Shown: piece by piece, positions 25,236 to 37,274 of the stretch
Layout: each line of letters opens with the position of its first letter
Position numbering within the stretch: position 1 is the first letter of the stretch
Source of the DNA: a virus
Direction: 5' to 3' (one strand)
Virus record (IMG/VR): IMGVR_UViG_3300042691_014559
Location: 1 to 39,790 of that record
DNA: 39,790 nucleotides
Translations under genes and position numbers: made by a program
Notes under the pieces: model-generated
Told to the model about the DNA's origin: nothing
Databases searched by the model: none
Seen by the model: the letters and a program-made list of their open reading frames with translations, nothing else

Positions 25236-25238
25236 TAG

Positions 25239-25555: not shown

Positions 25556-25561
25556 TACTAA

Positions 25562-25732: not shown

Positions 25733-25768
25733 ACTACTAGGACACTTTGGAGGTGAGTAACTTTAATT
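25732..25768 (-). repeat. Intergenic junction element, copy 8
   Basis: TACTACTAGGACACTTT, then GGAGGTGAGTAACTTTAATT. It supplies the only possible ATG of the 56-residue gene and overlaps the stop of the 47-residue gene. Confidence 0.92.
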
Positions 25769-26107: not shown

Positions 26108-26271
26108 ACAGGGGTAACTTCAACAGAACGGATAAGATTTGTGCGATCTTGTGCTAGGTAATCATCAGCAATTTTACCACAAGATGAACGAGACTTGATG
26201 AACCTTTCTTCATAGTAAGTCTCTGCAGTGTTGGGAACTTTGTACTCAATCAGCATACGATAGGTTTTCAT
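26104..26271 (-). CDS. Hypothetical protein (55 aa)
   Basis: ATG at 26271 to TGA at 26104, overlapping both neighbours by 1-4 bases. Sequence MKTYRMLIEYKVPNTAETYY, then EERFIKSRSSCGKIADDYLA. It is strand, helix and strand, ending SVEVTPV. The function is unknown; the coupling at both ends makes it a credible gene. Confidence 0.6.
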   Translation of the reverse strand: MKTYRMLIEYKVPNTAETYYEERFIKSRSSCGKIADDYLAQDRTNLIRSVEVTPV

Positions 26272-26456
26272 TATTTGAAAAAGAATGAGTGAATGTCAGT
26301 CTCTTCGTCATACTGAATGACGAAATCTCCAATCTCTACATTATCACTTTCTTCAACAAGTTGTGCGAACTCAGTGACATTTGAGAAAGGAAGTTGGGGA
26401 ATGATACAATCCCCAAACTCATCAAAAGAATTGACGCAGTTACCAACAAACTTCAT
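26271..26456 (-). CDS. Hypothetical acidic protein (61 aa)
   Basis: MKFVGNCVNSFDEFGDCIIP opens an acidic protein ending IQYDEETDIHSFFFK, with a helix VTEFAQLVEESDNV in the middle. Its TAA overlaps the next ATG (TAATG) and it follows the 82-residue gene by two bases. No family is recognised. Confidence 0.65.
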   Translation of the reverse strand: MKFVGNCVNSFDEFGDCIIPQLPFSNVTEFAQLVEESDNVEIGDFVIQYDEETDIHSFFFK

Positions 26457-26458
26457 AA

Positions 26459-26707
26459 TCAGTAGTGTGCCTCAGAGGTGTCAAGAACTTCGCTGTACTT
26501 AGCGATACCGTCATAGCAACGCTTTGCCATTTCAGAATCACCCTCAGCAACGTAACCTTTCAGAAACTCAAAGCAGTATTTGATACGCTGCTCAGGAGTA
26601 ACTTTAGCGAGTTGCTGTTGCTTACGCTCATAGGCAGCGTTGTATGCAAACATTTCACGATCTTCGAGGGAAATGTTGTGAAACTTGCGGTCAGTAGTGT
26701 TGCTCAT
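26459..26707 (-). CDS. Hypothetical helical protein (82 aa) starting in the junction element
   Basis: ATG at 26707 lies in repeat copy 9. The next in-frame Met is codon 19, so the element ATG is the likely start (MSNTTDRKFHNISLEDREMF). The rest is helical: NAAYERKQQQLAKVTPEQRI, then EFLKGYVAEGDSEMAKRCYD. The pattern is similar to tetratricopeptide-like helix pairs but too short to assign. Confidence 0.65.
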   Translation of the reverse strand: MSNTTDRKFHNISLEDREMFAYNAAYERKQQQLAKVTPEQRIKYCFEFLKGYVAEGDSEMAKRCYDGIAKYSEVLDTSEAHY

Positions 26708-26743
26708 ACTACTAGGACACTTTGGAGGTGAGTAACTTTAATT
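26707..26743 (-). repeat. Intergenic junction element, copy 9
   Basis: TACTACTAGGACACTTT, then GGAGGTGAGTAACTTTAATT. It supplies the ATG of the 82-residue gene and overlaps the stop of the 102-residue membrane protein gene (26742). Confidence 0.92.
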
Positions 26744-27050
26744 ACTTGAACTGTTTGTATAACCAAGCAATCAAACAAATCACTGCAATCGGAACAACAA
26801 TCCACCAGTATTCTACGATCAACCAGATACCAAATAAAATGGCACCTAATATCAAATAACCACCAACATCTCCGTCAGAAGATGTTGAAGAACCACCAGA
26901 ACTTACCTGGCGAAGATTAACAATTTGCTGAACGTCTCCGTGCTTTGCATAGATTTGCTCTTTTGCACCAGAAAATGTTGCTGCCTCCACTTCTGTGTTA
27001 ATCCTACCGACGCGGGAATTAACAAATACTTCTGCTCTCCAAGTTGCCAT
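26742..27050 (-). CDS. Two-segment membrane protein (102 aa)
   Basis: ATG at 27050 overlaps the upstream TAA (TAATG), and AGAGG lies 10 bases before. A soluble N-terminal domain (MATWRAEVFVNSRVGRINTE, then AATFSGAKEQIYAKHGDVQQ) is followed by a Gly/Ser-rich linker near residue 54 and two adjacent membrane helices: YLILGAILFGIWLIV and WWIVVPIAVICLIAWLY. The C-terminus is short and basic. A small membrane-tethered domain acting at the host membrane is likely; the function is unknown. Confidence 0.7.
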   Translation of the reverse strand: MATWRAEVFVNSRVGRINTEVEAATFSGAKEQIYAKHGDVQQIVNLRQVSSGGSSTSSDGDVGGYLILGAILFGIWLIVEYWWIVVPIAVICLIAWLYKQFK

Positions 27051-27313
27051 TACCAAGTACCTCTTTGGACGTGGATTTTGCGAATCTCTTGATAAATGAA
27101 CTGACGAAGTTTAGGTTCGGTAGTGTTATCAAAAGCATAATAAAGACGATTCAAATACTCATCTTGTGTTGCACATTTGATTGTTTCCTTGGTACTCATT
27201 CCAATCTCATTGAGTGTAGAACCTGCCTTAACTTTTTGTTTTCCAAAGTTACCAGTAATGTTACCAGTTGTCCTCAGTTTGGGACGAATCTTTGAGAGGT
27301 TAGAGTAAGTCAT
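27050..27313 (-). CDS. Hypothetical basic protein (87 aa)
   Basis: Begins MTYSNLSKIRPKLRTTGNIT. The N-terminal third is basic and probably extended; the C-terminal half is helical (DEYLNRLYYAFDNTTEPKLR, then IYQEIRKIHVQRG). The ATG overlaps the stop of the TTG-started 58-residue gene (ATGA). The function is unknown. Confidence 0.65.
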   Translation of the reverse strand: MTYSNLSKIRPKLRTTGNITGNFGKQKVKAGSTLNEIGMSTKETIKCATQDEYLNRLYYAFDNTTEPKLRQFIYQEIRKIHVQRGTW

Positions 27314-27486
27314 TCTTCATCTTCCTCATAAGGGAACATTTCGTCATACTCTTCGTCTGTGAGAGTAAGATACTGAACGTTAGCATTTTTGTGCTCTTCA
27401 GCATACACTAACTGGTAGTGTGCAAAGGAAGAAAGATCACTGCTAGCAAACTCTAGCAAACCGTCAACAAAACAAAGATAGTTCAA
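27310..27486 (-). CDS. Hypothetical acidic protein (58 aa), TTG start
   Basis: This frame opens with TTG at 27486, overlapping the TGA of the 86-residue gene by four bases (TTGA), and runs to TGA at 27310. From the TTG it reads MNYLCFVDGLLEFASSDLSS and ends DEEYDEMFPYEEDEE. No ATG occurs before codon 50, so a non-ATG start is needed. The complete fill between coupled neighbours supports it. Confidence 0.5.
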   Translation of the reverse strand: MNYLCFVDGLLEFASSDLSSFAHYQLVYAEEHKNANVQYLTLTDEEYDEMFPYEEDEE

Positions 27487-27743
27487 CGTGCAACAATGTC
27501 AAGAGATTCTAGAAGCATGAACGCAAGTTCTACTTGATTTTGGTCGTCAACCACGGGAATGTTTGAATCAACGAACTCGCTTGCAAGTTCATGCAAAAGT
27601 TCAGTCATTCGCAGGTCAGCATAAGCAAACGTGGCAAACTCATTCTTGAAACCGTCACGCAGAAGTTTGAGAGACTTTGTGACAGTCAGTTCTTTAATTT
27701 CTTCTTGGTATGTCATTTCAGTGTCAGGGGTTGTGCTACTCAT
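27483..27743 (-). CDS. Hypothetical acidic protein (86 aa)
   Basis: ATG at 27743 overlaps the TGA of the 143-residue gene (ATGA); M10 is an alternative. Sequence MSSTTPDTEMTYQEEIKELT, then a helical core (SLKLLRDGFKNEFATFAYAD, LHELASEFVD) and VELAFMLLESLDIVAR. Acidic and probably all-helical. No family is recognised. Confidence 0.65.
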   Translation of the reverse strand: MSSTTPDTEMTYQEEIKELTVTKSLKLLRDGFKNEFATFAYADLRMTELLHELASEFVDSNIPVVDDQNQVELAFMLLESLDIVAR

Positions 27744-28171
27744 TTTGCGTAAAGATAACCACCGCTCCAGTCTGCATTTTCCAGAAGATACTCACGATCT
27801 TTAATCAATCGCAGGTCATAACGAACACCTTTAGCAGGAGATTTCCAAGTGGCAGACTTATATACTTCGCCAGTGTTCTTGTCAATGAAGCAATGAACAC
27901 TGCGGGAACCGCCACCATTAACCAGAATCACTTTGTGATACTTTTTACCAGTCTCAACAGTATAATCAATGTCACACTTGCCAGACTTGAGTTCATCAAT
28001 CTTGCGCTGATGATACTCTTGAGTATCAGGATCATTCACGAACTTTTGGTGCCCGCGAATAGAATACTGACGATAGTTGTCTTTCAGTGCTTCAATCAGC
28101 AGCAGAGTATTCTTGAGAACATTCTCTGCAATCGTTTGTTGTGCTTGTGCTTGCATGGTAAGAGTGCTCAT
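27740..28171 (-). CDS. Conserved hypothetical protein (143 aa)
   Basis: The first ATG (28171) lies in repeat copy 10; codon 6 is a second Met. An N-terminal helix pair (TIAENVLKNTLLLIEALKDN) is followed by a beta-rich domain, KKYHKVILVNGGGSRSVHCF, then IDKNTGEVYKSATWKSPAKG and VRYDLRLIKDREYLLENADW. The phrase KSPAKGVRYDLR is one I associate with T4-like cyanophage proteins of unknown function, possibly related to DNA-binding or nuclease-like small domains. No catalytic motif stands out. Confidence 0.7.
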   Translation of the reverse strand: MSTLTMQAQAQQTIAENVLKNTLLLIEALKDNYRQYSIRGHQKFVNDPDTQEYHQRKIDELKSGKCDIDYTVETGKKYHKVILVNGGGSRSVHCFIDKNTGEVYKSATWKSPAKGVRYDLRLIKDREYLLENADWSGGYLYAK

Positions 28172-28207
28172 ACTACTAGGACACTTTCGAGGTGAGTAAC
28201 TTTAATC
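28171..28207 (-). repeat. Intergenic junction element, copy 10
   Basis: TACTACTAGGACACTTT, then CGAGGTGAGTAACTTTAATC. It carries an ATG of the 143-residue gene and overlaps the stop of the ligase-fold gene (28206). Confidence 0.92.
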
Positions 28208-29126
28208 AACCCCAATTCTTAGCAGCGGTGAAGTTTGCATGAGAGAATACTTCACGATCAACTACCTTAAACATTCCATGTTGATTATGAATGACATAAC
28301 CCTCGTGGAAACTTGCAACGTCCCAAATGAAACATTCAATGTCGTCTTCTTCATGAATGAACAGGAACAGATCTTCTTTGATAGACTTAACCAGTTTCCA
28401 CAAACGGATCAGGTTGATGTCACAATTTGTTTTTTCTGCAATTTCACTTTCATTCACGACCTTTTGCTCACGAATGCAAGCATTGATCTCTTTTTTGATT
28501 TGTGTTGCTTTGTTCGCGCTCACAAACTCACATAGAGTGCTCATTTGCTTGGCAAACTTACACACATCCTCCAAATCTTCACGATAAGGATTCAGCGACA
28601 CGGCAGGTTGCACAAACAAACATTTCTTTGTGCTTGCAAACTTGTTGGTGATAGGGTGTGCTACCATTTCAGGCAGACGATCACCAGTGTAGTAAGTGTG
28701 AGGGCAAATGATAATCTCCTGACGCACAACCTCAGGAAACTTGTAGGTAATGGTATTGGGTTTGAATGTATCAAGACCCTTACCGAAACCAATCCAATCT
28801 CCCTGATACACATTCTTAGTGCGTGGCAGGAAATCCAGGCAGAAAATAAGGATTTGCGTTACGCGAGGTTGACCACCAAAGTGCTCAAATACATCATCCT
28901 CGTTATAGCAGAGGCGAATCTTTTGCTTGTTAAATGCTGCTTTGGTGCAGACAAAAAACTTACCATTCTCAGGATTAGTGCCCCAAACAATAGCAGGAGC
29001 ACCGTCCATCTTGACACTGATAAAACTTTCAGGTTCATAGAACCAATCCAGAACAGAAAGATCACCCGTAAGGATAGAATCTTCAGGGTGTTCAATGTGT
29101 TTGTTTTGCATTGGTTGGTTGCTCAT
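28206..29126 (-). CDS. KxDG nucleotidyltransferase / ligase-fold protein
   Basis: This 306-residue protein has the ordered motifs of the covalent nucleotidyltransferase superfamily (DNA and RNA ligases, capping enzymes): motif I as K39-M-D-G42 in SVKMDGAPAIVWG, a middle segment LIFCLDFLP in the motif III position, motif IV as E275-G-Y-V-I and motif V with K287 in MFKVVD. The N-terminus (HPEDSILTGDLSVLDWF) matches a family of T4-like phage proteins of unknown function (DUF6267-like). Lysine 39 would carry AMP or GMP. There is no OB-fold C-terminal domain, so substrate and even activity are uncertain. It starts in repeat copy 11, with a second Met at codon 6. Confidence 0.7.
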   Translation of the reverse strand: MSNQPMQNKHIEHPEDSILTGDLSVLDWFYEPESFISVKMDGAPAIVWGTNPENGKFFVCTKAAFNKQKIRLCYNEDDVFEHFGGQPRVTQILIFCLDFLPRTKNVYQGDWIGFGKGLDTFKPNTITYKFPEVVRQEIIICPHTYYTGDRLPEMVAHPITNKFASTKKCLFVQPAVSLNPYREDLEDVCKFAKQMSTLCEFVSANKATQIKKEINACIREQKVVNESEIAEKTNCDINLIRLWKLVKSIKEDLFLFIHEEDDIECFIWDVASFHEGYVIHNQHGMFKVVDREVFSHANFTAAKNWG

Positions 29127-29162
29127 ACTACTAGGACGCTTTGGAGGTGAGTAACTTTAATT
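29126..29162 (-). repeat. Intergenic junction element, copy 11
   Basis: TACTACTAGGACGCTTT, then GGAGGTGAGTAACTTTAATT. It carries an ATG of the ligase-fold gene. The stop of the upstream gene lies 4 bases outside. Confidence 0.92.
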
Positions 29163-29165
29163 AGA

Positions 29166-29369
29166 TCAAACTTCCACCAGTTTCCGTAGACGATTGCGAA
29201 TATCAAAGAGTTCCATTTCGTCCATATCTGCAGAATCAAGGTCTACAGGAGCAAACTCTTCAAGATTTACATTGCCATTAGCATAAATGGGAGCATAGTA
29301 CAACTCGTCTCCATCTTCTTGCGACAGAGTATAAACACAACCGTGAGCAGGAACAGTGAGGAAAATCAT
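29166..29369 (-). CDS. Hypothetical acidic protein (67 aa)
   Basis: I prefer ATG at 29369 (MIFLTVPAHGCVYTLSQEDG); the open frame upstream runs through a terminator hairpin. A beta-rich first half is followed by a very acidic stretch (FAPVDLDSADMDEMELFD) and a basic end, RNRLRKLVEV. The function is unknown. Confidence 0.65.
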   Translation of the reverse strand: MIFLTVPAHGCVYTLSQEDGDELYYAPIYANGNVNLEEFAPVDLDSADMDEMELFDIRNRLRKLVEV

Positions 29370-29393
29370 TGAAGTTTTAAGAACAAAGGTACA

Positions 29394-29426
29394 ATAAAGG
29401 AGCACAAGCATAAAAGCAAGTGCTCC
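29394..29426 (-). terminator. Probable terminator, minus strand
   Basis: On the minus strand GGAGCAC and GTGCTCC form a 7-bp stem extended by two inner GC pairs, followed by TTTATTGT. The T run is short, so termination may be partial. It follows the 88-residue membrane gene. Confidence 0.55.
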
Positions 29427-29438
29427 CGTGCCAGTTTA

Positions 29439-29705
29439 TCAAGCAGCAACGCGCTTGCGAGTTTTGGTCACTTTTACCACTTGAGTGGTAGCGGCAGGCA
29501 AAACATTTGCATTGACCACTTCATAAACAAAAGCAGTGAAACGATTCACAATGAAGAGAGTTTGATTAACAAACTTACGAACTTTATTTGCACCATCGTT
29601 TTCATTAAATGCGCGAATCAGAAACTGACTCACAGCAACAATAACAGCAGCGATAGTAGCAAGGTTCTTAACAAGAGTGTCAACAAACTTCCAGTAAAAA
29701 GTCAT
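29439..29705 (-). CDS. Small membrane protein (88 aa) with basic tail
   Basis: MTFYWKFVDTLVKNLATIAA leads into a hydrophobic segment (ATIAAVIVAVSQFLI, about 16-30). A charged loop follows, then a second weakly hydrophobic stretch (LFIVNRFTAFVYEVV), and the end is strongly basic (VKVTKTRKRVAA). It probably inserts in the host inner membrane with the basic tail in the cytoplasm. Its ATG is 38 bases beyond repeat copy 12, leaving a real leader. Confidence 0.65.
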   Translation of the reverse strand: MTFYWKFVDTLVKNLATIAAVIVAVSQFLIRAFNENDGANKVRKFVNQTLFIVNRFTAFVYEVVNANVLPAATTQVVKVTKTRKRVAA

Positions 29706-29742
29706 AGTTTGTGGTAAAAACTGCTGTGAGGAAGAATCCCCA

Positions 29743-29779
29743 CACTACTAGGACACTTTGAAGGTGAGTAATTTTAATT
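29743..29779 (-). repeat. Intergenic junction element, copy 12
   Basis: A diverged copy: CACTACTAGGACACTTT, then GAAGGTGAGTAATTTTAATT. The ATG is changed to GTG and the next gene starts 38 bases away. It holds the TAA of the 53-residue gene. Confidence 0.88.
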
Positions 29780-29935
29780 GACGGGAAGTTTTGCCATTGA
29801 TTTACCCTTCTTGTGATCTGTGATATACTTTCGCGCAGAACTTTCAGTCCTACACAGTTTCTCAAGTTGCTGACCATTGTGGATAATGAGATACTGATTC
29901 CCGTAAGGAATCGCAGCATATGTATCCTTGAACAT
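29774..29935 (-). CDS. Hypothetical basic protein (53 aa)
   Basis: ATG at 29935 with GGAAGGA about 7 bases upstream. Sequence MFKDTYAAIPYGNQYLIIHN, then RTESSARKYITDHKKGKSMA. A beta hairpin is followed by a basic helix. The pattern NQYLIIHNGQQLEKLCRTESSA, here quoted in part only as QYLIIHN, recalls small cyanobacterial proteins, but no family can be named. First gene after the terminator behind the helicase. Confidence 0.6.
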   Translation of the reverse strand: MFKDTYAAIPYGNQYLIIHNGQQLEKLCRTESSARKYITDHKKGKSMAKLPVN

Positions 29936-30025
29936 TGTAAATCCTTCCTTCATACTCTATACTTTCCAATAAATCGTAATTTTGATTGCAGCAGAGGACT
30001 CATAGCACCCTTGCAGTAGAATTGC

Positions 30026-30050
30026 AAAAAAATCAGGGTTTGACCCCTGA
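30026..30050 (-). terminator. Rho-independent terminator behind the helicase
   Basis: On the minus strand TCAGGG and CCCTGA form a stem with a 6-base loop, followed by seven T (30032-30026). It lies 26 bases beyond the helicase stop codon. Confidence 0.88.
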
Positions 30051-30075
30051 CCAGCATATGAGTCTTAGGTGAGAC

Positions 30076-31323
30076 TCACCGCCTCACCACCGATACAGCA
30101 GGTTCGCCCTTCTCGAAGATCGTATCAACAACCGACTGCACAGCGCGAGCGGTAGCAATACCAACCTTGGAGTACACTGGGATACACACAAGACCGAACG
30201 ATTTGCTATACTGACTCAGGTTGCCAGGTTCGATACGTCCATCGCGCATACCTTTGGCGTCGTCATGGTGCAAACGAATACAACGTCCGATCGTCTGACT
30301 GATACCAATAAAGTCCATATTACGCAGGAACAGCACTGCTTCCAGACCGCTCACGTTGATACCCTCAGCAAGGATACTATGGTGTAGAACAACGAACTTC
30401 TTGTCGTTGTCTTTGCCCCAGGCAGATAGCGTGTCAAAGAATACTTCGCGGTTCACTTTCTTGCCGTCGATAACAGCACCAGTCTTGGCAGTAATATACA
30501 TCCAAGAGTAACCACGGCACTCTAACTGGAAACAGAAATCAGTTTCAGTTACCAGCGATACGATTTGCTTGGTTGCCTTAGCACAAATCAGAATCTTGCC
30601 AACCTTGTTGTCGTCAATCGTTTCCAGCAGATTCTCAGAATCACGGTCGAAGTTGGTCTGCTTACCAGTTACCATAGCAAGTTGCTTGACGATAACTTTA
30701 GGTGGCACAATATAACCACCCTCAACCAACTCAGGAGCAGGAACTTTGCAGATTACCTGACCATAAACAGCAGCATCATTCATGCCAGGTTTGCCAACTG
30801 CCAGAGAATGTTTGGGAGTTGCAGTGAAGAAATAGCAGCGACGTGCGTTAGCAGCAAAGTGCTCAGTTGCAGGGAAAAAGTGACGCTGAACACTGTTATG
30901 TGCCTCGTCAAAGTAAATGGTATCAACCTCAATCTCTGCTGCTTGCAGACGATTAAGAGAGTTGTAGGTAGTGAAGATCAGTTGATGACGATTAGCAGCA
31001 GCACACATACCAGCGTGAGCAACAATGTCAGCAGGTTTGGTAGTGCTGCAGTGGTGCGTTTCGCCACTATGAACGTGCAGAACTTCGGCGTCAGTGATAA
31101 ACTCCAGAAACTCAGCAGAGAGTTGCTCTGCCAGAAGAATACGCGGAGCAACAACTACAATCGTCTGGGGAGTTTGTGACTGCAACTCGCGCAGACAATC
31201 ATAGATCATCTTAAGAGTCTTACCGCCACCAGTAGGAACAATGATCTGACCTTTAGCGTGCTTTTGCATAGCAGCAACGCCACGTTCTTGGTGAGGACGG
31301 AGTTGGATTTGCATTGGAATCAT
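30076..31323 (-). CDS. DEAH-type superfamily 2 helicase (UvsW-like)
   Basis: A 415-residue helicase with the motifs in order: RPHQ (9-12), Walker A PTGGGKT (30-36), motif Ia VVAPRILLAEQL, DEAH at 139-142, motif III TAT at 167-169, then a C-terminal domain with VLHHSILAEGINVSGLEAVL and motif VI QTIGRCIRLH. It unwinds or remodels branched DNA using ATP. T4 UvsW (503 residues) has the same core and acts in recombination-dependent replication and in ending origin-dependent initiation. This one lacks the extra N-terminal domain, so it may be a shortened UvsW or a related RAD25/type III restriction-like helicase. ATG at 31323 is 5 bases beyond repeat copy 13. Confidence 0.88.
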   Translation of the reverse strand: MIPMQIQLRPHQERGVAAMQKHAKGQIIVPTGGGKTLKMIYDCLRELQSQTPQTIVVVAPRILLAEQLSAEFLEFITDAEVLHVHSGETHHCSTTKPADIVAHAGMCAAANRHQLIFTTYNSLNRLQAAEIEVDTIYFDEAHNSVQRHFFPATEHFAANARRCYFFTATPKHSLAVGKPGMNDAAVYGQVICKVPAPELVEGGYIVPPKVIVKQLAMVTGKQTNFDRDSENLLETIDDNKVGKILICAKATKQIVSLVTETDFCFQLECRGYSWMYITAKTGAVIDGKKVNREVFFDTLSAWGKDNDKKFVVLHHSILAEGINVSGLEAVLFLRNMDFIGISQTIGRCIRLHHDDAKGMRDGRIEPGNLSQYSKSFGLVCIPVYSKVGIATARAVQSVVDTIFEKGEPAVSVVRR

Positions 31324-31327
31324 TATC

Positions 31328-31364
31328 TAATACTAGGACGCTTTCGAGGTGAGTAACTTTAATT
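31328..31364 (-). repeat. Intergenic junction element, copy 13
   Basis: TAATACTAGGACGCTTT, then CGAGGTGAGTAACTTTAATT. It lies between the 65-residue gene and the helicase and overlaps the stop of the former. The helicase ATG is 5 bases outside. Confidence 0.9.
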
Positions 31365-31556
31365 GCCTGCCTCTTTGTATCGGTTAAGGTCTCGAATCAC
31401 ATCTTTCATTGTAGCACGACTGTATCCATTTGCATAGTATGGAGACTTTTCAGTTTCATCAGAACTGCCGTCAACATTGTCACATATGTCAACACCTTGC
31501 TGAAGTGTCTTGAGGATACGCTCATAGACATAAACAGGGATTTGAATGTAATTCAT
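31359..31556 (-). CDS. Hypothetical protein (65 aa)
   Basis: The start at 31556 (MNYIQIPVYVYERILKTLQQ) is chosen because the open frame upstream runs into a terminator at 31584. A helical N-terminal part is followed by GVDICDNVDGSSDETEKSPY and a basic helix, ATMKDVIRDLNRYKEAGN. No family is recognised. Confidence 0.65.
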   Translation of the reverse strand: MNYIQIPVYVYERILKTLQQGVDICDNVDGSSDETEKSPYYANGYSRATMKDVIRDLNRYKEAGN

Positions 31557-31583
31557 TGTTCTCAGTGGTTTGGTATCTAAAGA

Positions 31584-31620
31584 CAAAAATAGCACGCTTA
31601 GAAGTCAATCTGAGCGTGCT
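31584..31620 (-). terminator. Rho-independent terminator, minus strand
   Basis: On the minus strand AGCACGCT pairs with AGCGTGCT, with a further inner AGA/TCT pairing, followed by ATTTTTG. It lies just behind the 51-residue gene ending at 31633, so the genes from 31556 on need their own promoter. Confidence 0.88.
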
Positions 31621-31632
31621 GGTGGGGTTTAA

Positions 31633-31788
31633 TTAACCTCCGAACATTTCGTCAAACAACCAATCACCAGAACGCTCCTTTTCTTCCCAGACTTTATTAG
31701 CGTTCTCAGCAATCATTGCTTGCTCAATCTTCATATCAAGGGCAGATTTGGTCATGAACCAGTTGCCGTTGCGATCTTGCCAGAGCAT
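31633..31788 (-). CDS. Hypothetical acidic protein (51 aa)
   Basis: ATG at 31788 to TAA at 31633, 21 bases beyond repeat copy 14. Sequence MLWQDRNGNWFMTKSALDMK, then IEQAMIAENANKVWEEKERS, ending WLFDEMFGG. Mostly one long amphipathic helix. The function is unknown. Confidence 0.6.
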   Translation of the reverse strand: MLWQDRNGNWFMTKSALDMKIEQAMIAENANKVWEEKERSGDWLFDEMFGG

Positions 31789-31808
31789 TGTGTTGAGTGT
31801 TGTCCTTA

Positions 31809-31845
31809 TACTACTAGGACACTTTCAAGGTGAGTAACTTTAATT
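31809..31845 (-). repeat. Intergenic junction element, copy 14
   Basis: TACTACTAGGACACTTT, then CAAGGTGAGTAACTTTAATT. The minus strand continues TATAAGGAC with no ATG; the next gene starts 21 bases on. The stop of the upstream head-protein-like gene lies 5 bases outside. Confidence 0.92.
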
Positions 31846-31849
31846 GGAC

Positions 31850-32530
31850 TCAACTTCCAGATGCTTGTGCTGCTGCTTTTGCTTTTGCTCTCATTTGAAC
31901 AGCAACTTTACTGTTCCACTTTCCACCTTTCTCTTCGTATTCTTTACGCATTTGTGAAAGAATCTCAGTAGCAGATTTCTTAGTCTTTTGTGCTGCTTGT
32001 GTTTTCTCTTTGTTTCTAGCAGCATCTCTCTCTTGACGTGTCATAGGAGCACCAGTTTCAGTTTTCCACTGTCTGCGTGGTTTTGCTGCTGCTGGTTTTT
32101 CTGCTGCTTTTGGTTTTGCTTGAGATATTGCTTGCGATGCGGTCTTTGGTTGCTCTTTACCGCTTTCTTTTGCTTTACGCTCAAGATATGCTTTACGCTG
32201 TCTTTCTTTAGGGGTCATTGCAGCACTTCCTTGAGTTCCTGCAGTTCCTGGTTTCAATTCTGTTGCACCTTTACCTCTTCCAGGTGCGGGTGCTGAAGAC
32301 CCTCTTTGCTGACCAACATCTTTGCGTGTTTTATACTGAACAGGTTCAGTTTTTCCACCACCGACTGCTTTGGTTCTTCTAATTTCAGGAGCAGTCTTTT
32401 TGCGTTCTCTTCCTATTCTGCCACCAGCACCAGTTTTGGTGATGGAAACACCACCACCCCAACCAAGTTTACTAGCAGCATCACCGTCAGATGCTTCACA
32501 AAGCGACATAAACTCCTTAAAGGTCTTCAT
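31850..32530 (-). CDS. Putative packaged internal head protein, Ala/Lys-rich (226 aa)
   Basis: The N-terminus MKTFKEFMSLCEASDGDAAS closely resembles the capsid-targeting sequence of T4 internal proteins (MKTYQEFIAEA), which the prohead protease gp21 cuts after (L/I)-x-E. Here L10-C-E12 fits that rule. The rest is extremely basic and low in complexity: Ala, Lys, Gly, Gln and Arg dominate, with KKSATEILSQMRKEYEEKGG near the C-terminus. A CTAAATA late promoter lies 26 bases upstream. Known internal proteins are packaged with the DNA and injected to counter host defences. Packaging is an inference from the motif, charge and late promoter. Confidence 0.6.
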   Translation of the reverse strand: MKTFKEFMSLCEASDGDAASKLGWGGGVSITKTGAGGRIGRERKKTAPEIRRTKAVGGGKTEPVQYKTRKDVGQQRGSSAPAPGRGKGATELKPGTAGTQGSAAMTPKERQRKAYLERKAKESGKEQPKTASQAISQAKPKAAEKPAAAKPRRQWKTETGAPMTRQERDAARNKEKTQAAQKTKKSATEILSQMRKEYEEKGGKWNSKVAVQMRAKAKAAAQASGS

Positions 32531-32555
32531 TTTAGTATCTAAACACTCTTTTTAG

Positions 32556-32562
32556 TATTTAG
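32556..32562 (-). promoter_or_regulatory. T4-type late promoter motif CTAAATA
   Basis: The minus strand reads CTAAATACT 26 bases before the ATG of the head-protein-like gene at 32530. It overlaps the stop of the 66-residue gene. It is one of the clearest late motifs in the right half of the window. Confidence 0.65.
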
Positions 32563-32759
32563 ATTTCCTCTTCCTTTGCTTTGTACGCACCCTTGAAGAC
32601 ACGACCTTCGGCATAAAATTGTTTCACACGCTCACGACGAGTAGCAATCAAAAGATCATATTCTTCTTGCTGTTGTTTGGTGAAATTGAAATCTTGACGC
32701 CTCCAAGTTTCCTTAAGTTCTTGAATGTGAGGAAGCACGTTAGGGATTTGTTCAGTCAT
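32559..32759 (-). CDS. Hypothetical helical protein (66 aa)
   Basis: MTEQIPNVLPHIQELKETWR opens a charged, all-helical protein that continues RQDFNFTKQQQEEYDLLIAT and ends FKGAYKAKEEEI. Coiled-coil character is likely. It ends within the late promoter of the next gene. The function is unknown. Confidence 0.65.
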   Translation of the reverse strand: MTEQIPNVLPHIQELKETWRRQDFNFTKQQQEEYDLLIATRRERVKQFYAEGRVFKGAYKAKEEEI

Positions 32760-32803
32760 TTGAATAGAATAAAGGATTAGGAGTCAGTGTGGGGGATTTA
32801 GTG

Positions 32804-32821
32804 GACAGTTTAGAAACTGTC
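32804..32821 (-). promoter_or_regulatory. Perfect 8-bp hairpin overlapping a stop codon
   Basis: GACAGTTT (32804-32811) and AAACTGTC (32814-32821) form a perfect stem with a 2-base loop. It overlaps the TGA of the 44-residue gene. No T run follows, so it is more likely an RNA-stability or operator structure than a terminator. Confidence 0.5.
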
Positions 32822-32954
32822 AGTAGTCAATGTTAGAATTAAGATAATTCTTGAGATTGAAGTGATTTTCTTCTTCAATCAGATCAGAAAGATCTTCTCC
32901 CACAAAATCAAAGTTTTCAATTTCTTCAATTTGAATGTCGTCGAAGCAGTCCAT
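32820..32954 (-). CDS. Very acidic small protein (44 aa)
   Basis: ATG at 32954 to TGA at 32820, 18 bases beyond repeat copy 15. Sequence MDCFDDIQIEEIENFDFVGE, then DLSDLIEEENHFNLKNYLNS. About a third of the residues are D or E and there is a single K, a composition seen in DNA-mimic and anti-restriction proteins. The role is not established. Confidence 0.6.
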   Translation of the reverse strand: MDCFDDIQIEEIENFDFVGEDLSDLIEEENHFNLKNYLNSNIDY

Positions 32955-32971
32955 AAAAAGTGAGTCGCTTA

Positions 32972-33008
32972 CATTATTAGGACACTTTGGAGGTGAGTAA
33001 CTTTAATT
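32972..33008 (-). repeat. Intergenic junction element, copy 15
   Basis: CATTATTAGGACACTTT, then GGAGGTGAGTAACTTTAATT. The TAGTATG core is changed to TAATAATG on the minus strand. It overlaps the stop of the second head-protein-like gene (33007); the next ATG is 18 bases on. Confidence 0.9.
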
Positions 33009-33420
33009 AGCGACTCATAATTGCTTTCATTCTTGCTCTTTTTGCTGTTTCTTGTGCTCTTGCTTCTGCCCCAATCTCTTGGTGAACGTGTCTTCTATGT
33101 TGTATTCCACCTTTTACCTGTTCTCTTGCTTTCATTATATTAAAAGGTGTGGGATTCATATGAGGATCTTGCTCATGAATCTTTTGAACTGATTTTGCTA
33201 ACTTCTTCAGTCTCTTTGCTACTTCTTTTCCACCACTACGTTTTACAACTAACTTATCAACTTCTTTCTTTGTTGGTTTACCTTGTGGACCTTCATAACG
33301 CTGAAGAGTGTAAGAGATAGTTCCTTCACTATCTCTCTTGTAAGTTCCAGGAACTGCATGAGGTGGCATGTCAGGTTTCTTACCTTCGCAGATTTGATAG
33401 AACTCTCTAAATGTCAGCAT
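33007..33420 (-). CDS. Putative packaged internal head protein, basic (137 aa)
   Basis: The N-terminus MLTFREFYQICEGKKPDMPP has the same layout as the 226-residue protein: (K/L)TF(K/R)EF at 2-7 and a gp21-like cleavage triplet, I10-C-E12, before G13. The mature part is strongly basic with histidines: YKRDSEGTISYTLQRYEGPQ, KKEVDKLVVKRSGGKEVAKR, then a helical tail AEARAQETAKRARMKAIMSR. The segment SGGKEVAKRLKKLAKS suggests DNA binding. AATAAATA lies 20 bases upstream as a possible late promoter. Same inference as for the 226-residue gene: virion-packaged and injected. Confidence 0.6.
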   Translation of the reverse strand: MLTFREFYQICEGKKPDMPPHAVPGTYKRDSEGTISYTLQRYEGPQGKPTKKEVDKLVVKRSGGKEVAKRLKKLAKSVQKIHEQDPHMNPTPFNIMKAREQVKGGIQHRRHVHQEIGAEARAQETAKRARMKAIMSR

Positions 33421-33439
33421 TTTACTTATACTTTTTGAT

Positions 33440-33447
33440 TATTTATT
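33440..33447 (-). promoter_or_regulatory. Possible late promoter (AATAAATA)
   Basis: The minus strand reads AATAAATAATC 20 bases before the ATG at 33420, one base from the T4 late consensus. The spacing to the start codon is similar to that of the CTAAATA at 32556. Confidence 0.45.
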
Positions 33448-33738
33448 TTACTCAAACTCAAGAGTTCTATTTGATACTTTCATAGGTGAAGTTTGATACT
33501 CTGGGACGGTAGAAGTTTCAACATATACTTCTATCTTAGTTTCGTCATTCCAGTGACGAATCACACCAGCAACAATAAAAGCATTGGTAATCAAATAAGT
33601 TGCAAAAATAAAAGTTCGGATAAGTGCTACCTTATCCGATTCACGATCACATTTACTTGCTTTTTCTCCCAATGCTTTAGCCCACCAGCGCCAAGCAGTC
33701 TTGTTCTTCTTCATATCTTGATTTTCTTGATTTAACAT
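33448..33738 (-). CDS. Single-pass membrane protein (96 aa)
   Basis: ATG at 33738, or M9 at 33714 (MKKNKTAWRWWAKALGEKAS). A basic N-terminal part is followed by a membrane helix (LIRTFIFATYLITNAFIVAG, about 39-58) and an acidic tail that would lie outside the cytoplasm (IEVYVETSTVPEYQT). It overlaps the end of the 87-residue gene by at least 38 bases. The function is unknown. Confidence 0.65.
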   Translation of the reverse strand: MLNQENQDMKKNKTAWRWWAKALGEKASKCDRESDKVALIRTFIFATYLITNAFIVAGVIRHWNDETKIEVYVETSTVPEYQTSPMKVSNRTLEFE

Positions 33739-33940
33739 ACTCCAACTGATTCCATTGATTATTGTAGCAAATTACAAGAACTCTTTCGTTCCTATGAATA
33801 GAACAAGCAAGATAATTTTCTTCATCTTTTGGGCGGACTGCTGCTTCTATTGTAATATACTCTTTATCCTTAAAATAAACCCAACCTTCAACACCTTTAG
33901 TCCATTTTACATAATCATTGACTTTTGGTTCGTAGGTCAT
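33677..33940 (-). CDS. Hypothetical protein with SH3-like layout (87 aa)
   Basis: MTYEPKVNDYVKWTKGVEGW, then VYFKDKEYITIEAAVRPKDE and ERVLVICYNNQWNQLEYVKS. The order of short strands with VKW, GWVYF and VLVICYN resembles a small SH3-like barrel. This fold is often used by phage proteins for nucleic acid or protein contacts. This is a fold guess only. It follows the 97-residue gene by two bases. Confidence 0.65.
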   Translation of the reverse strand: MTYEPKVNDYVKWTKGVEGWVYFKDKEYITIEAAVRPKDEENYLACSIHRNERVLVICYNNQWNQLEYVKSRKSRYEEEQDCLALVG

Positions 33941-33942
33941 AT

Positions 33943-34233
33943 CTAAACAAAAAACGCATCTAGTGGAGATTGTTTAATAGGCATTGCGGTGTAATTCCGC
34001 GTATCCTTGATATTTACACAAGCACCGATGGTCTTACTATTGATTGGGGCGAAGTATTCTCTGGTTTTGGTGTTGTAGAAGGAGTGAATAGTTCTAGTAG
34101 GAGCACCACCATTATAGACAAACTTGCGAGTGTTGCATAACCAAATACTGACCACATTTCGTTTGAACTCTTCGCATTCATAATAGTATCCTTCAGGAGC
34201 AGAATAAGGCAGAGGTGGAAGTTCAGCAGTCAT
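33943..34233 (-). CDS. Hypothetical protein (97 aa)
   Basis: I prefer ATG at 34233 (MTAELPPLPYSAPEGYYYEC), because the frame upstream is occupied by the coiled-coil gene, with an 11-base overlap. The core has KRNVVSIWLCNTRKFVYNGG, then TIHSFYNTKTREYFAPINSK, a beta-rich pattern. It ends with a short hydrophobic AFFV tail. The function is unknown. Confidence 0.65.
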   Translation of the reverse strand: MTAELPPLPYSAPEGYYYECEEFKRNVVSIWLCNTRKFVYNGGAPTRTIHSFYNTKTREYFAPINSKTIGACVNIKDTRNYTAMPIKQSPLDAFFV

Positions 34234-34390
34234 AGAACTTGTCTCGCGACATATACTCAATTTGCTTCTGCAGTTGTGAGATTTCGTGTTCTTGTTCTGC
34301 AATTTTACTTTGCAGTTGTTCAATACGCTCTTGATACTGTTTCTTCAAATCAAACACCATTTTATTGGTGTGAGCAACGTGGTGAGTCAT
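34223..34390 (-). CDS. Small coiled-coil protein (55 aa)
   Basis: ATG at 34390 to TGA at 34223. MTHHVAHTNKMVFDLKKQYQ leads into heptads ERIEQLQSKIAEQEHEISQL and QKQIEYMSRDKF, with Ile/Leu at a and d positions over about four heptads. A dimeric or trimeric coiled coil is likely. It is placed 2 bases after the 80-residue gene. Homologous short coiled coils in phages are often unassigned. Confidence 0.6.
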   Translation of the reverse strand: MTHHVAHTNKMVFDLKKQYQERIEQLQSKIAEQEHEISQLQKQIEYMSRDKFYDC

Positions 34391-34392
34391 AA

Positions 34393-34635
34393 TCAAGTTG
34401 TAAAGGATTCAATTACTGCAGATTCTACATCTTCAGCGAGGGCATAAGTTCTTGCATTTAACACATTTTCACGAAGAGTTGTGTAATGTTGCTCATAGAA
34501 GTTACCATTATCTTCTGCTGCAATCAGATCAAAACATTCGTTATCGTCTTCAGCAATTACATTCCAGAGTCCACCATATTCACTAGAAGGAAAAGGAATG
34601 TAGTGATCGACGATATAAAGAAACTTTTGTGCCAT
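34393..34635 (-). CDS. Hypothetical protein (80 aa)
   Basis: MAQKFLYIVDHYIPFPSSEY, then GGLWNVIAEDDNECFDLIAA. A strand, an aromatic loop (FPSSEYGGLW) and a strand-turn-helix (VIAEDDNECFDLIAAED) precede an acidic C-terminal helix. The (V/A)IAEDDNEC pattern resembles that of the 71-residue protein at 23559 (VIAAESKDQCREL), so the two may be distant relatives. The function is unknown. Confidence 0.65.
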   Translation of the reverse strand: MAQKFLYIVDHYIPFPSSEYGGLWNVIAEDDNECFDLIAAEDNGNFYEQHYTTLRENVLNARTYALAEDVESAVIESFTT

Positions 34636-34661
34636 TTGTCTTTGTAAATTACCTCTTAAGT

Positions 34662-34760
34662 TTAGGATTGATTGTTGTCTTTGTCAATGTCTGCAGCAAC
34701 TATAAGTGCAGTTCCTATAGTCAAAAGCATACCGACACCCATACCAAGAATAAAAGTCAT
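34662..34760 (-). CDS. Very small membrane peptide (32 aa)
   Basis: ATG at 34760 to TAA at 34662, one base after the stop of the 55-residue gene. One membrane helix (MTFILGMGVGMLLTIGTALI, VAA) is followed by the polar tail DIDKDNNQS. It has glycine zipper-like spacing (GMGVG). A single-helix host-membrane modulator is possible; nothing specific is recognised. Confidence 0.5.
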   Translation of the reverse strand: MTFILGMGVGMLLTIGTALIVAADIDKDNNQS

Positions 34761-34761
34761 T

Positions 34762-34929
34762 TCAAATGTCAGAAGATTTTACATTCAAAACTTTTTCAAG
34801 TTCATCAACAATTTCATTGACATTATGCCAATCATTGTGAATTGGTTCTCCATTAAGATATCTAAACAAGGACTTCAACAAAAATTTTGCCTCCTCTCTA
34901 TCAAGGGACAGATTGACTTTGACTTCCAT
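34762..34929 (-). CDS. Hypothetical protein (55 aa)
   Basis: ATG at 34929 to TGA at 34762. Sequence MEVKVNLSLDREEAKFLLKS, then LFRYLNGEPIHNDWHNVNEI and VDELEKVLNVKSSDI. It is a strand followed by two helices and resembles a small helical adaptor. It lies directly behind the homing endonuclease gene (23-base gap). No family is recognised. Confidence 0.6.
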   Translation of the reverse strand: MEVKVNLSLDREEAKFLLKSLFRYLNGEPIHNDWHNVNEIVDELEKVLNVKSSDI

Positions 34930-34952
34930 CGGTTTGATTGCTTACAAAGTCA

Positions 34953-35657
34953 TTATAAGGCACCACGAGAGCATTTGGAGCATCCTTGTGCCAGTTCTTG
35001 GACTGACACGATATTCTTATATTTCTTAACTCCTCTCCCATTATAAAGATTTCTCACAGAAGTTGGTTTATATCCATTTTCTTTTGCCCAAGTGTTTAAT
35101 GATTTTATGATTTCATATTTACCATCATCAAATACTATTTTCCAAGTTTTTGCTCTTGGATTTTTCTCTCCAACACAATCTCCTTTCATCTTTTTAGTGT
35201 GTTTCATTTTTTCCACAGATTCTATTGGAACATTTCTTCCCCTTAAACAAGAAACTTTGCCACTATTTGATTTGCTTATTTTTCTTTTAGTTTCTTCTGT
35301 GTGCAAAACTCCTTTATTTGGAGCAACTCTTCCCTTATTAGATTGACTGATTTTTTTCCTAGTTTCTCCACTATGAATCAATCCACTATTCCCTTCTCCG
35401 CCATCAGTTTTATTTCTTAATATTCCAGTTCCCAAATCTTTTCTGCCAAACACAGAAATCATATAGATTTCGTGCTTAAATGCTTCTTCTTCAGTTAGAT
35501 TTTGCTTCAGTTTAATTATTCTTGATTTATCTTTTGGAACTCCACAAGGTTTTCCACCTTGCTGATACATTCTTTGTGTTTGTCCTTTACCTATGTAATA
35601 AGGAGTTTTATCCTCACGCAAATAGGCATAAGTGTAAAATCTGTTAGGATTTAACAT
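34953..35657 (-). CDS. Free-standing GIY-YIG homing endonuclease
   Basis: A 234-residue protein. The GIY-YIG core is seen as YTYAYL (8-13) and YYIGKG (20-25) with R29, catalytic E63 (HEIYMI) and N82 (LRNKTDGGEG). It is followed by three NUMOD3-like DNA-binding repeats (HSGETRKKISQSNKGR at about 95, HTEETKRKISKSNSGK at about 118, then SVEKMKHTKKMKG). A C-terminal helix-turn-helix (LNTWAKENGYKPTSVRNLYN) completes it. Such enzymes cut a related phage lacking the gene and spread by repair, as T4 Seg proteins do. No intron is visible. A TATAAATA late promoter is 28 bases upstream. Confidence 0.9.
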   Translation of the reverse strand: MLNPNRFYTYAYLREDKTPYYIGKGQTQRMYQQGGKPCGVPKDKSRIIKLKQNLTEEEAFKHEIYMISVFGRKDLGTGILRNKTDGGEGNSGLIHSGETRKKISQSNKGRVAPNKGVLHTEETKRKISKSNSGKVSCLRGRNVPIESVEKMKHTKKMKGDCVGEKNPRAKTWKIVFDDGKYEIIKSLNTWAKENGYKPTSVRNLYNGRGVKKYKNIVSVQELAQGCSKCSRGAL

Positions 35658-35684
35658 AACTGCTCTTAAAATTGTCCGCAGTAT

Positions 35685-35692
35685 TATTTATA
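35685..35692 (-). promoter_or_regulatory. T4 late promoter TATAAATA
   Basis: An exact match to the T4 late promoter octamer on the minus strand, 28 bases before the homing endonuclease ATG and directly behind a terminator. It allows the endonuclease to be expressed late, apart from the genes upstream. Confidence 0.7.
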
Positions 35693-35694
35693 CT

Positions 35695-35719
35695 AAAAAG
35701 GAGGAGATTTCTCTCCTCC
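35695..35719 (-). terminator. Rho-independent terminator, minus strand
   Basis: On the minus strand GGAGGAG and CTCCTCC form a stem with a 6-base loop, followed by five T. A second hairpin (CCTTAAA at 35722-35728 with TTTAAGG at 35740-35746) precedes it. Together they insulate the homing endonuclease from the upstream operon. Confidence 0.88.
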
Positions 35720-35748
35720 ACCCTTAAAGTTTGCGGACATTTAAGGCA

Positions 35749-35901
35749 TTAGTATTTATCATCGACATAAAACTCTTGGAGAATGTAGTCGCAGGTTACT
35801 TCATACTTTTCCGCAAGTCGTTCAACTTCTTTCCAGAAATCTTCTGCTACTTTGTCCATTTCTGCTCGTTTGATAAGGTCTCGGATACTTTTCGGAATCA
35901 T
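35749..35901 (-). CDS. Hypothetical charged protein (50 aa)
   Basis: ATG at 35901 to TAA at 35749. MIPKSIRDLIKRAEMDKVAE, then DFWKEVERLAEKYEVTCDYI, ending LQEFYVDDKY: helices with mixed charge, possibly a small helix-turn-helix. It overlaps the upstream TGA (ATGA) and is the last gene of the membrane operon before the terminator. The function is unknown. Confidence 0.6.
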   Translation of the reverse strand: MIPKSIRDLIKRAEMDKVAEDFWKEVERLAEKYEVTCDYILQEFYVDDKY

Positions 35902-36023
35902 TTGGATTTCTCCTTAAGTTGTGCTTCTTCAGTAGGATACATTACCTTATAGTAATATATCATAATCGACGATACAAATGCAACCAGACCAGTATAGATT
36001 GCAAAAGCAAATCCAATACTCAT
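35898..36023 (-). CDS. Small membrane protein (41 aa)
   Basis: ATG at 36023 to TGA at 35898. One membrane helix (MSIGFAFAIYTGLVAFVSSI, MIYYY) is followed by a charged tail, PTEEAQLKEKSK. It overlaps both neighbours by 4 bases (ATGA) within an operon of membrane proteins. The function is unknown. Confidence 0.6.
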   Translation of the reverse strand: MSIGFAFAIYTGLVAFVSSIMIYYYKVMYPTEEAQLKEKSK

Positions 36024-36154
36024 TTCATTTGTTGAATTGCTTGTTGGCGATAATATGCTTTATGGAGAGCACTATCACGTTGAATTAGAAAGACATTCCA
36101 ACCAAGAATGACTGCAAAACCAATCAATCCAGTGACAATGTACTTTTTGCTCAT
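36020..36154 (-). CDS. Small membrane protein (44 aa)
   Basis: ATG at 36154 to TGA at 36020. A short basic start (MSKKY) precedes a membrane helix (IVTGLIGFAVILGWNVFLI) and a basic helical tail (QRDSALHKAYYRQQAIQQMK). It is coupled to the prohibitin-like gene upstream and the 41-residue gene downstream by ATGA overlaps. Confidence 0.6.
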   Translation of the reverse strand: MSKKYIVTGLIGFAVILGWNVFLIQRDSALHKAYYRQQAIQQMK

Positions 36155-36558
36155 TTGTTAAGTTGGAGAGTGGGGACGGGCATACCACCTTCGGTGGGAA
36201 CATAAATGGTCACGTTACCATTCTTGGCACCATCTTCAATACCAGTGATATACAGATACTGAAGATACTCGCGGTTATCCTTCAGGCTATCACCAATGAT
36301 TTGGTTTGCTTTTGCAACACCAGTAGCACGAATGATTTCAGCATCAGCAAGTTGTTGAGCAGAATCTTTCTTTGCTTGTGCTTCAAGAACTGCTACCTGG
36401 CGAGTATATTCTGCCTTTTGTAGTTCTGCTTTACCAGCAAGAGATTGTTGCCACACATTGTATTGTGGACCACCAATAAAGATGAGACCACCAATCAAAA
36501 CCACACCGCCAACAAGCAGAATAGCAGAGGGGTCAATAAATCCGTTTTGTTGTTTCAT
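36151..36558 (-). CDS. Prohibitin/stomatin-like membrane protein, short (135 aa)
   Basis: After MKQQNGFIDPSA comes a membrane helix (ILLVGGVVLIGGLIFIGGP). A long alanine-rich helix follows (KAELQKAEYTRQVAVLEAQA, KKDSAQQLADAEIIRATGVA, KANQIIGDSL), ending in LQYLYITGIEDG and VTIYVPTEGGMPVP. This is the layout of the C-terminal half of SPFH (prohibitin/stomatin) proteins: the EAQAKKD...A.G.A.A coil and the closing strand. The SPFH barrel itself is missing. SPFH proteins form ring-shaped membrane scaffolds that bind proteases such as FtsH. The phage version might modulate host FtsH or stabilise membranes during infection. Confidence 0.65.
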   Translation of the reverse strand: MKQQNGFIDPSAILLVGGVVLIGGLIFIGGPQYNVWQQSLAGKAELQKAEYTRQVAVLEAQAKKDSAQQLADAEIIRATGVAKANQIIGDSLKDNREYLQYLYITGIEDGAKNGNVTIYVPTEGGMPVPTLQLNK

Positions 36559-36746
36559 TTAGAAGAACCTCCAGAGTTGTAAGTAATCATATTAGCAAGC
36601 AGAACAATCAGAAAGTTCTGCCAAATTGACAGTGAAACACTAAACCAAGACAGAATGATTCCAAGAATCCATGCTTGGAAGAACAGTCCTGCCGTAGCAA
36701 GGACAATTACTCCAAAAGCAACACCGAGAGCAGTAGAAGTTTTCAT
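36555..36746 (-). CDS. Small membrane protein (63 aa), two helices
   Basis: MKTSTALGVAFGVIVLATAG, LFFQAW, then ILGIILSWFSVSLSIWQNFL and IVLLANMITYN. Nearly the whole protein is hydrophobic, with two or three membrane segments and a short polar end (SGGSSK). It starts the membrane gene run and overlaps the prohibitin-like gene by 4 bases. Holin-like activity is possible but there is no direct evidence. Confidence 0.6.
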   Translation of the reverse strand: MKTSTALGVAFGVIVLATAGLFFQAWILGIILSWFSVSLSIWQNFLIVLLANMITYNSGGSSK

Positions 36747-36749
36747 AGA

Positions 36750-37190
36750 TCAAACAGCAAGAGCAGCAGAGGGGATTTCAACGACTTCGGGAAGTTTTTG
36801 TTCATAACAATTCATATTATAGCACACCCATTCACCGTTGCGGAAGACATAGTGGTACTCTTCACCATTATCGGGAAGAAGATACTCTGCAAGGTCAGCA
36901 TCAAGGCGAGGAGGAGTATCTTCACCACGCTCAGAGTAGTATTGGGGACCGTATTCTTGCACTTTGTTGGAATATGAACCCCCAAACTCATTGGGACGAT
37001 CAACCCAGCGTTCTTCAGACCAGCAAGAACTCATGTCACCACCGTCAATCAGTTCGGCAACTTTTTGACGAGTGTTGTAATGAGTCTTCAGGATACGACC
37101 CAACCACTCAGGATAACCATCCCAGTGATGATACACAGAAAGTACAGAACCATTCTTAAGTTCGATACCAATTCGTGCTCGGGTTGCCAT
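36750..37190 (-). CDS. Conserved phage hypothetical protein (146 aa)
   Basis: MATRARIGIELKNGSVLSVY, then HHWDGYPEWLGRILKTHYNT and RQKVAELIDGGDMSSCW. The HHWDGYPEWLG phrase with a downstream GGDMS and YHYVFRNGEWVCYN is familiar from a family found in many phages and some bacteria, with no assigned role. The fold is alpha/beta. It starts 18 bases beyond repeat copy 16, which itself follows a terminator, so this gene is the first in a new transcription unit reaching to 35749. Confidence 0.75.
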   Translation of the reverse strand: MATRARIGIELKNGSVLSVYHHWDGYPEWLGRILKTHYNTRQKVAELIDGGDMSSCWSEERWVDRPNEFGGSYSNKVQEYGPQYYSERGEDTPPRLDADLAEYLLPDNGEEYHYVFRNGEWVCYNMNCYEQKLPEVVEIPSAALAV

Positions 37191-37207
37191 TTCAAGTTCG
37201 TTGCTTA

Positions 37208-37244
37208 CATTACTAGGACACTTTAGAGGTGAGTAATTTTAATT
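37208..37244 (-). repeat. Intergenic junction element, copy 16
   Basis: CATTACTAGGACACTTT, then AGAGGTGAGTAATTTTAATT. This copy lies 4 kb from the others and directly downstream of a terminator. It is the only candidate promoter region for the 146-residue gene, which begins 18 bases on. Confidence 0.88.
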
Positions 37245-37248
37245 CCAA

Positions 37249-37274
37249 GAAAAAAGGTGCCCTTTTGGACACCT
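37249..37274 (-). terminator. Rho-independent terminator, minus strand
   Basis: On the minus strand AGGTG and CACCT, with an inner CC/GG pairing, are followed by a run of six T. It is five bases behind the stop of the 54-residue gene and five bases ahead of repeat copy 16. Confidence 0.88.

Follow-up and report, generated by a model that had tools for sequence, protein, structure and literature searches.

Two putative head cargo proteins of a T4-like cyanophage and a capsid-targeting tag shared with virion enzymes of other marine T4-like viruses

Two basic proteins, IP-A and IP-B, encoded by a viral genome fragment are probably capsid cargo that is expressed late, targeted by an N-terminal tag, processed by the prohead protease and injected with the DNA, a reading to which we assign a probability of about 0.85. 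The fragment (hereafter the window) is the whole viral record, 39,790 bases, and lacks head genes; its nucleotide matches among deposited phages are to Synechococcus myoviruses only, and its source is, judged by sequence, a T4-like cyanophage. A first-pass annotation had interpreted the two proteins as injected internal head proteins of the T4 type. That interpretation is supported by the comparisons reported here, and it was right to a greater extent than the evidence then allowed. Those features that are open to a test by sequence support placing IP-A and IP-B among the tag-bearing internal proteins of the T4 class; that the two are targeted, cleaved and injected, and how they function, we infer. 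Across marine T4-like viruses the tag itself emerges as a general label of cargo, enzymes already detected in particles among it.

Both open reading frames proposed by the annotation are present, on the minus strand. The IP-A gene (31850-32530, minus) encodes a basic protein of 226 amino acids with the start MKTFKEFMSLCEAS... (also given as MKTFKEFMSLCEA), and the IP-B gene (33007-33420, minus) a basic protein of 137 amino acids with the start MLTFREFYQICEGK... (also given as MLTFREFYQICEG), in which N- and C-terminal cargo modules are fused. The claimed common N-terminal layout with a gp21-type cut-site motif was confirmed in the sequence. The predicted capsid-targeting sequence occupies residues 1-12 in both proteins: MKTFKEFMSLCE/ASDG... 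in IP-A (32495-32530, minus), with a predicted cut after LCE12, and MLTFREFYQICE/G in IP-B (33385-33420, minus), with a predicted cut after ICE12. LCE12 is the only [ILVM]xE in the whole of IP-A, and IP-B has two such sites, ICE12 and IHE83. A departure from the T4 tag, and a point against the cargo reading, is that IP-B has L at residue 2, not K/R.

The tag is T4-like, as the annotation held, but its closest T4 counterpart is not the start that was cited, MKTYQEFIAE. T4 IPI starts MKTFKEF, identical to IP-A residues 1-7 at all seven positions, and the match to T4 is thus closer than had been proposed; IPII and IPIII, so named in their records, start MKTYQEFIAEA. Also a point against is that the predicted cuts of IP-A and IP-B lie two residues further in than those of IPII and IPIII, though the first ITE of IPI ends at residue 19. 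Mutational work on T4 by Mullaney and Black, reviewed in PMC9026906, assigns targeting to residues 4 and 7 and processing to residues 8 and 10. An alignment of 37 IP-A relatives shows F4 and F7 without exception (37/37), and the cut-site glutamate is present in all, at residue 10 in eight and at residue 12 in 29. One relative (L212) starts MKTFQEFIAEA, a single residue off T4's MKTYQEFIAEA. In IP-B relatives M1, T3, F4 and F7 are invariant.

Like IP-A and IP-B, the T4 proteins IPI, IPII and IPIII have aromatic residues at positions 4 and 7, an (L/I)xE cut site, mutually unrelated basic bodies and a scattered accessory location. Unlike them, IP-A and IP-B are preceded by the heptamers CTAAATA and ATAAATA, presumably belong to a phage of a marine or estuarine cyanobacterium, include a multi-module fusion (IP-B) and have no detected body homology to solved internal-protein sequences (profiles against PDB sequences), the last being expected if the bodies are interchangeable cargo. 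T4 Alt, an injected ADP-ribosyltransferase, is likewise virion cargo with a short propeptide, and gp21 cuts it at both ends, so that cargo can be cut beyond an N-terminal site (PMC5694885); it differs in that its enzymatic activity is known and its propeptide has 6 residues, whereas IP-A and IP-B carry no enzyme signature. Ejection proteins of phiKZ and SPN3US are also propeptide-bearing cargo with a related prohead protease, but they use an S/A-x-E motif and belong to another phage group.

The mature proteins are predicted to be highly basic, in line with the annotation (pI 10.6 for IP-A and 10.4 for IP-B), though a pI of 10.5 is reached by two other small open reading frames of the window. 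Basic charge alone was dropped as a mark of the two proteins, since other open reading frames of the window are equally basic. Their bodies, described earlier as unrelated, indeed share no relatives: the two sets do not overlap. The IP-A family has at least 54 members in the loci collected, nearly all of them tagged and the majority preceded by [CA]TAAATA at about 30-33 nt. Cultured phages with an IP-A relative include S-SM2 (SSM2_065, MKTLGQFLAE/AYDKD, with a predicted cut before A11), P-TIM68, S-B05 and SynMITS9220M01; a tblastn search of annotated phages for IP-B relatives found none. Neither body has a convincing match in Pfam or PHROGs, and the two family profiles matched no PDB sequence at E values up to 1. 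AlphaFold2 models of the two (mean pLDDT 69 and 66, pTM 0.25 and 0.30) were too poor for a fold search and show, at low confidence, long helices and no compact fold.

High basicity, long helices without a compact fold in low-confidence models, the lack of matches to solved structures or known families, and a family that is widespread rather than strain-specific would also suit non-injected proteins of the head core, or ones that condense DNA, which undergo targeting and cleavage, contribute to assembling the head or packing the DNA, and stay idle in the next host. We consider this less likely, as architectures differ among close relatives (N, N-C, N-M-C and M-C, in the segment notation used below), IP-A relatives occur in few annotated cyanophages (nine records), unlike essential core proteins, and cargo with the same tag elsewhere consists of enzymes (SAM lyase, cytidylyltransferase), which points to action in a cell. 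T4 Ip1, Ip2 and Ip3 are inhibitors of restriction enzymes of the GmrSD type (PMC12373910), and by analogy IP-A and IP-B, read as injected cargo, may have a role in the host, for example against restriction.

The start codon of IP-A is preceded at 32 nt by the late-promoter heptamer CTAAATA (32556-32562, minus), and that of IP-B at 26 nt by ATAAATA (AATAAATA; 33440-33446, minus); by sequence, both heptamers are conserved in relatives. A different element marks many other genes of this region. The window's right half contains 14-16 copies of the intergenic repeat GTTACTCACCTNNAAAGYGTCCTAGTAGTATGAGC (20965-37251, minus); the repeat is 35-55 nt long, usually lies 28-77 nt ahead of the start codons of small genes, and is absent from shuffles. 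Scanning the region for sigma-70 promoters produced no signal above that of shuffles. The repeat probably serves this phage as its early promoter, though it matches sigma-70 poorly. It stands before the neighbouring genes at 27740, 28206, 30076, 31633 and 32820, the copy of the next downstream gene (31633-31788) being at 31804-31838 (minus). IP-A and IP-B are without it, and the small gene between them (32820-32954) has one. With heptamers upstream, no repeat of their own and a repeat on the gene in between, IP-A and IP-B look late inside an early-looking block, and the proposal of late promoters amid early-type small genes thus holds at the level of sequence. Another late-looking gene in this early-looking block (34953-35657, minus) encodes a 234-aa protein with the start MLNPNRFYTYAYLREDKTPYYIGKG, GIY-YIG endonuclease-like by eye, and has ATAAATA 34 nt upstream. 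A 58-aa open reading frame, MRPLKYKNLGEMSI (21007-21183, minus), is preceded at 31 nt by CTAAATA and shows no obvious tag.

We scanned IMG/VR with two codon patterns for MKTF[K/Q][E/Q]F; the counts, taken among the matches listed, are samples and not random draws. Among these matches the tag heads an open reading frame in 119 of 126 and 121 of 123 cases for the two patterns, and [ACT]TAAATA lies within 60 nt in 87/120 MKTFQ[EQ]F genes and in 31/123 genes of the other pattern. Glutamate is concentrated at residues 9 and 10 of the listed tagged open reading frames. Across the whole collection, a control with the same codons scrambled matched no more than 49 stretches; a late heptamer accompanied 0/48, and glutamate was almost absent at residues 9 and 10. 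The listed tagged proteins fall into 98 unrelated body clusters and are mostly basic, with a median net charge of +0.1 per residue versus -0.03 in the control. Recognised bodies include S-adenosylmethionine lyase (PF23780), a cytidylyltransferase-like protein, a DPBB lytic transglycosylase and DUF6321. Relatives of the SAM hydrolase found in virions of cyanophage S-CREM2 are tagged in 20 of 21 cases in the loci collected, a figure that expresses co-occurrence and not frequency, because most loci were collected by the tag. In one locus of another virus (L161:6505-9422, minus), four adjoining genes start MKTFKQFI(T/S/L)E and have bodies that BLAST did not group; from its sequence this would be a cargo island. 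Two tagged proteins (L109:3736-4149, plus; L161:8949-9422, minus) appear ADP-ribosyltransferase-like by eye, as T4 Alt is; Pfam searches gave this no support.

The tag co-occurs with detection in virions by mass spectrometry. As a test set we used S-CREM2, with 219 coding sequences, 52 of them in the virion list (PMC10665884 Table 3), and a strict form of the tag, M-x(1-3)-[FY]-x-x-[FY]-hydrophobic-x-E. All four strict-tag coding sequences are in the virion list, compared with 52/219 overall (Fisher P 0.003): the SAM hydrolase gp6 (MKDFDSFLEE), the kinase gp14 (MKRFDAFLTE), the cytidylyltransferase gp154 (MKNFSSFLTEA) and gp136 (MQTFSMFFSE). When L and W are also allowed, five of seven are in the virion (P 0.009); gp13 (MKDLHSFLTE) is an L variant, and the core [FYL]xx[FYLW]hxE is seen at seven S-CREM2 protein starts where about 0.5 are expected. 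A loose regular expression was dropped as a classifier, as 8 of its 15 S-CREM2 matches were outside the virion list; it catches ordinary proteins, and our claim therefore uses only the F/Y-F/Y form with E. In other cyanophages, the NMNAT of S-SCSM1, annotated as a virion protein, starts MKSFLQFLKEA, and T4-GC190 of S-SM1, an NMNAT homologue detected in virions (PMC3037559), starts MKKFSAFLNEA. Against the tag as a mark of virion proteins stands S-SCSM1 gp30 (MKTFKQFMSES, 106 aa), which is clearly tagged and is not marked as detected. The near-complete relative G001 (222,563 bases) has seven tag-type starts, including those of IP-A, IP-B and an NMNAT homologue.

These virion enzymes (SAM hydrolase, APH/ChoK-like kinase and cytidylyltransferase of S-CREM2, NMNAT/T4-GC190 of S-SCSM1 and S-SM1) resemble IP-A and IP-B in the type of tag, and several have a late heptamer as well; they were found by mass spectrometry and are folded enzymes, whereas IP-A and IP-B are basic and probably disordered. 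The authors of the S-CREM2 study considered that the enzymes were possibly encapsulated and that carry-over or contaminants could not be excluded (PMC10665884). The papers on these enzymes leave packaging open, and we came across no mention of a shared tag in them. A Cas9-like nuclease in S-CREM2 virions, gp12 (OR473000 7704-10313, minus), carries a tag-like LRFASFMAEA roughly 16 residues from its annotated start, which implies either a misplaced start codon or a tag that can lie internally. In a set comprising L073:15478-16770, S-CREM2 gp12 and gp14, and S-SCSM1 gp91, a second shared segment (~GDGHGGWYDRxGEFVAKT) lies behind the tag of the NMNAT homologues, and the S-CREM2 Cas9-like protein and kinase weakly match NMNAT homologues (E 1e-5 to 1e-8).

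The best argument from sequence that tagged proteins meet the prohead protease is avoidance of its sites, for which there would otherwise be no reason. Bodies of the 98 tagged clusters, among the matches listed, contain 57 [LI]xE versus 83.0 in shuffles (z -3.1); no such shortage affects the counterparts with K, D, Q, R or N in place of E. Small proteins of four cyanophage genomes, called as longest open reading frames with a few tagged proteins among them, have 925 [LI]xE versus 766 expected, and the basic ones 81 versus 55. The S-CREM2 scaffold gp22, destined for digestion by the protease, has 15 versus 5.2 expected, and the protease itself 8 versus 2.1. Internal [LI]xE is absent from all 37 IP-A relatives, and 15 divergent IP-A representatives have none versus 15.7 expected; the window's IP-A alone (0 versus 0.67) is not significant. 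A Peptidase_S77 gene (PF03420, E 1.5e-37) is present, with gp20-gp23, in the near-complete relative; the window, a fragment, does not contain one.

Mass spectrometry of same-tag virion proteins concerns proteins of other phages, not IP-A and IP-B themselves; neither these two nor any relative of theirs appears in the virion proteomes consulted, which counts against the cargo reading, and one might suppose that the two are late cytoplasmic proteins whose N-terminus reflects common descent or a translation-initiation signal rather than targeting. This appears very improbable in view of the 98 unrelated bodies behind the tag among the matches listed, the rarity and different behaviour of the scrambled codons in the whole collection, the avoidance of protease sites and the co-occurrence of the tag with detection in virions.

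According to the cargo reading, IP-A and IP-B would be expressed late from gp55-type promoters. The N-terminal 7-12 residues, with the aromatics at 4 and 7, would bind the prohead core, so that the proteins become enclosed in the prohead, where a gp21-type S77 protease would cut behind LCE12 or ICE12 to release the tag, and would probably split IP-B at IHE83 into two modules as well. The basic mature proteins would remain with the DNA in the capsid, reach the cyanobacterium together with it and most likely protect the genome or help it during the first minutes, for example against restriction. Metabolic and anti-restriction enzymes have repeatedly been found in cyanophage particles, in a setting where cargo and contamination could not be told apart (PMC10665884). 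The shared tag offers a rule for calling cargo from sequence and would account for these enzymes; it also leads one to expect that marine T4-like viruses encode many cargo proteins that have no annotation and that would act before any phage gene expression. A literature search combining cyanophages, capsid targeting and virion returned only a T4 review; subscription journals lay largely outside its scope, and we make no claim of priority.

As judged by sequence comparison, IP-B is a fusion of two modules that are separately encoded, and tagged, in other phages, a feature that is new here. The N-module (residues 13-83; 33172-33384, minus) is a stand-alone tagged gene in loci L010, L022, L045 and L046, and the C-module (residues 84-137, after IHE83; 33010-33171, minus) corresponds to a stand-alone gene, MKTF(K/Q)QFMEQ(T/H)P..., found in L013, L014, L015, L268, L037, L311 and L035. 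Profiles of three segments (N, M and C) revealed the architectures N, C, N-C, N-M-C, M-C and M, and stand-alone genes of all three segments have their own tag and late heptamer (C: MKTFQQFMEQTPTMEP...; M-C: MKTFQQFSEDIESRR...). In the fusions the inner tag is lost and the glutamate kept: FME/QTP becomes IEE/QTP, and FSE/DIESRR corresponds to IDE/DLEQRR. On fusion, the second gene would have lost its own start and tag and kept the cut-site glutamate, which with the isoleucine ending the first module would rebuild an I-x-E. IP-B may thus be a cargo polyprotein that is cut inside the head.

In all 13 listed fusions [LIVM]xE is confined to residue 12, in the tag, and to the point where the N segment ends, L004 having two junction sites there that bracket a remnant; two further fusions, 15 in all, also have [IV]xE at the junction. 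The junction site is kept although its middle residue varies and the modules that follow it differ, which argues against IP-B being a single functional protein with an incidental, uncut I-x-E. One [LI]xE in such a body is nevertheless unremarkable (0.7 expected), and isoleucine also ends the stand-alone N-module (KKI), another possible cause of its conservation; we regard the single protein as a serious, if somewhat less than even, prospect. As the fusions share kinship, the 15 cases are not independent events, and together with the isoleucine of the stand-alone module this makes cutting at the junction a good hypothesis rather than a result. We would put at even odds the fuller scheme, in which a common tag loads diverse head cargo, some cargo genes have fused with a rebuilt junction I-x-E, and the prohead protease frees the effectors. 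Module fusion shows how cargo sets may evolve and yields an inexpensive, specific prediction for mass spectrometry. Directly downstream of IP-B relatives, two loci (L010:975-2582 and L028:2430-4517) encode large proteins without the tag (MNSREYRELIQACQNV..., 535-695 aa); they have a late heptamer and contain, close to the C-terminus, the IP-B family's M segment.
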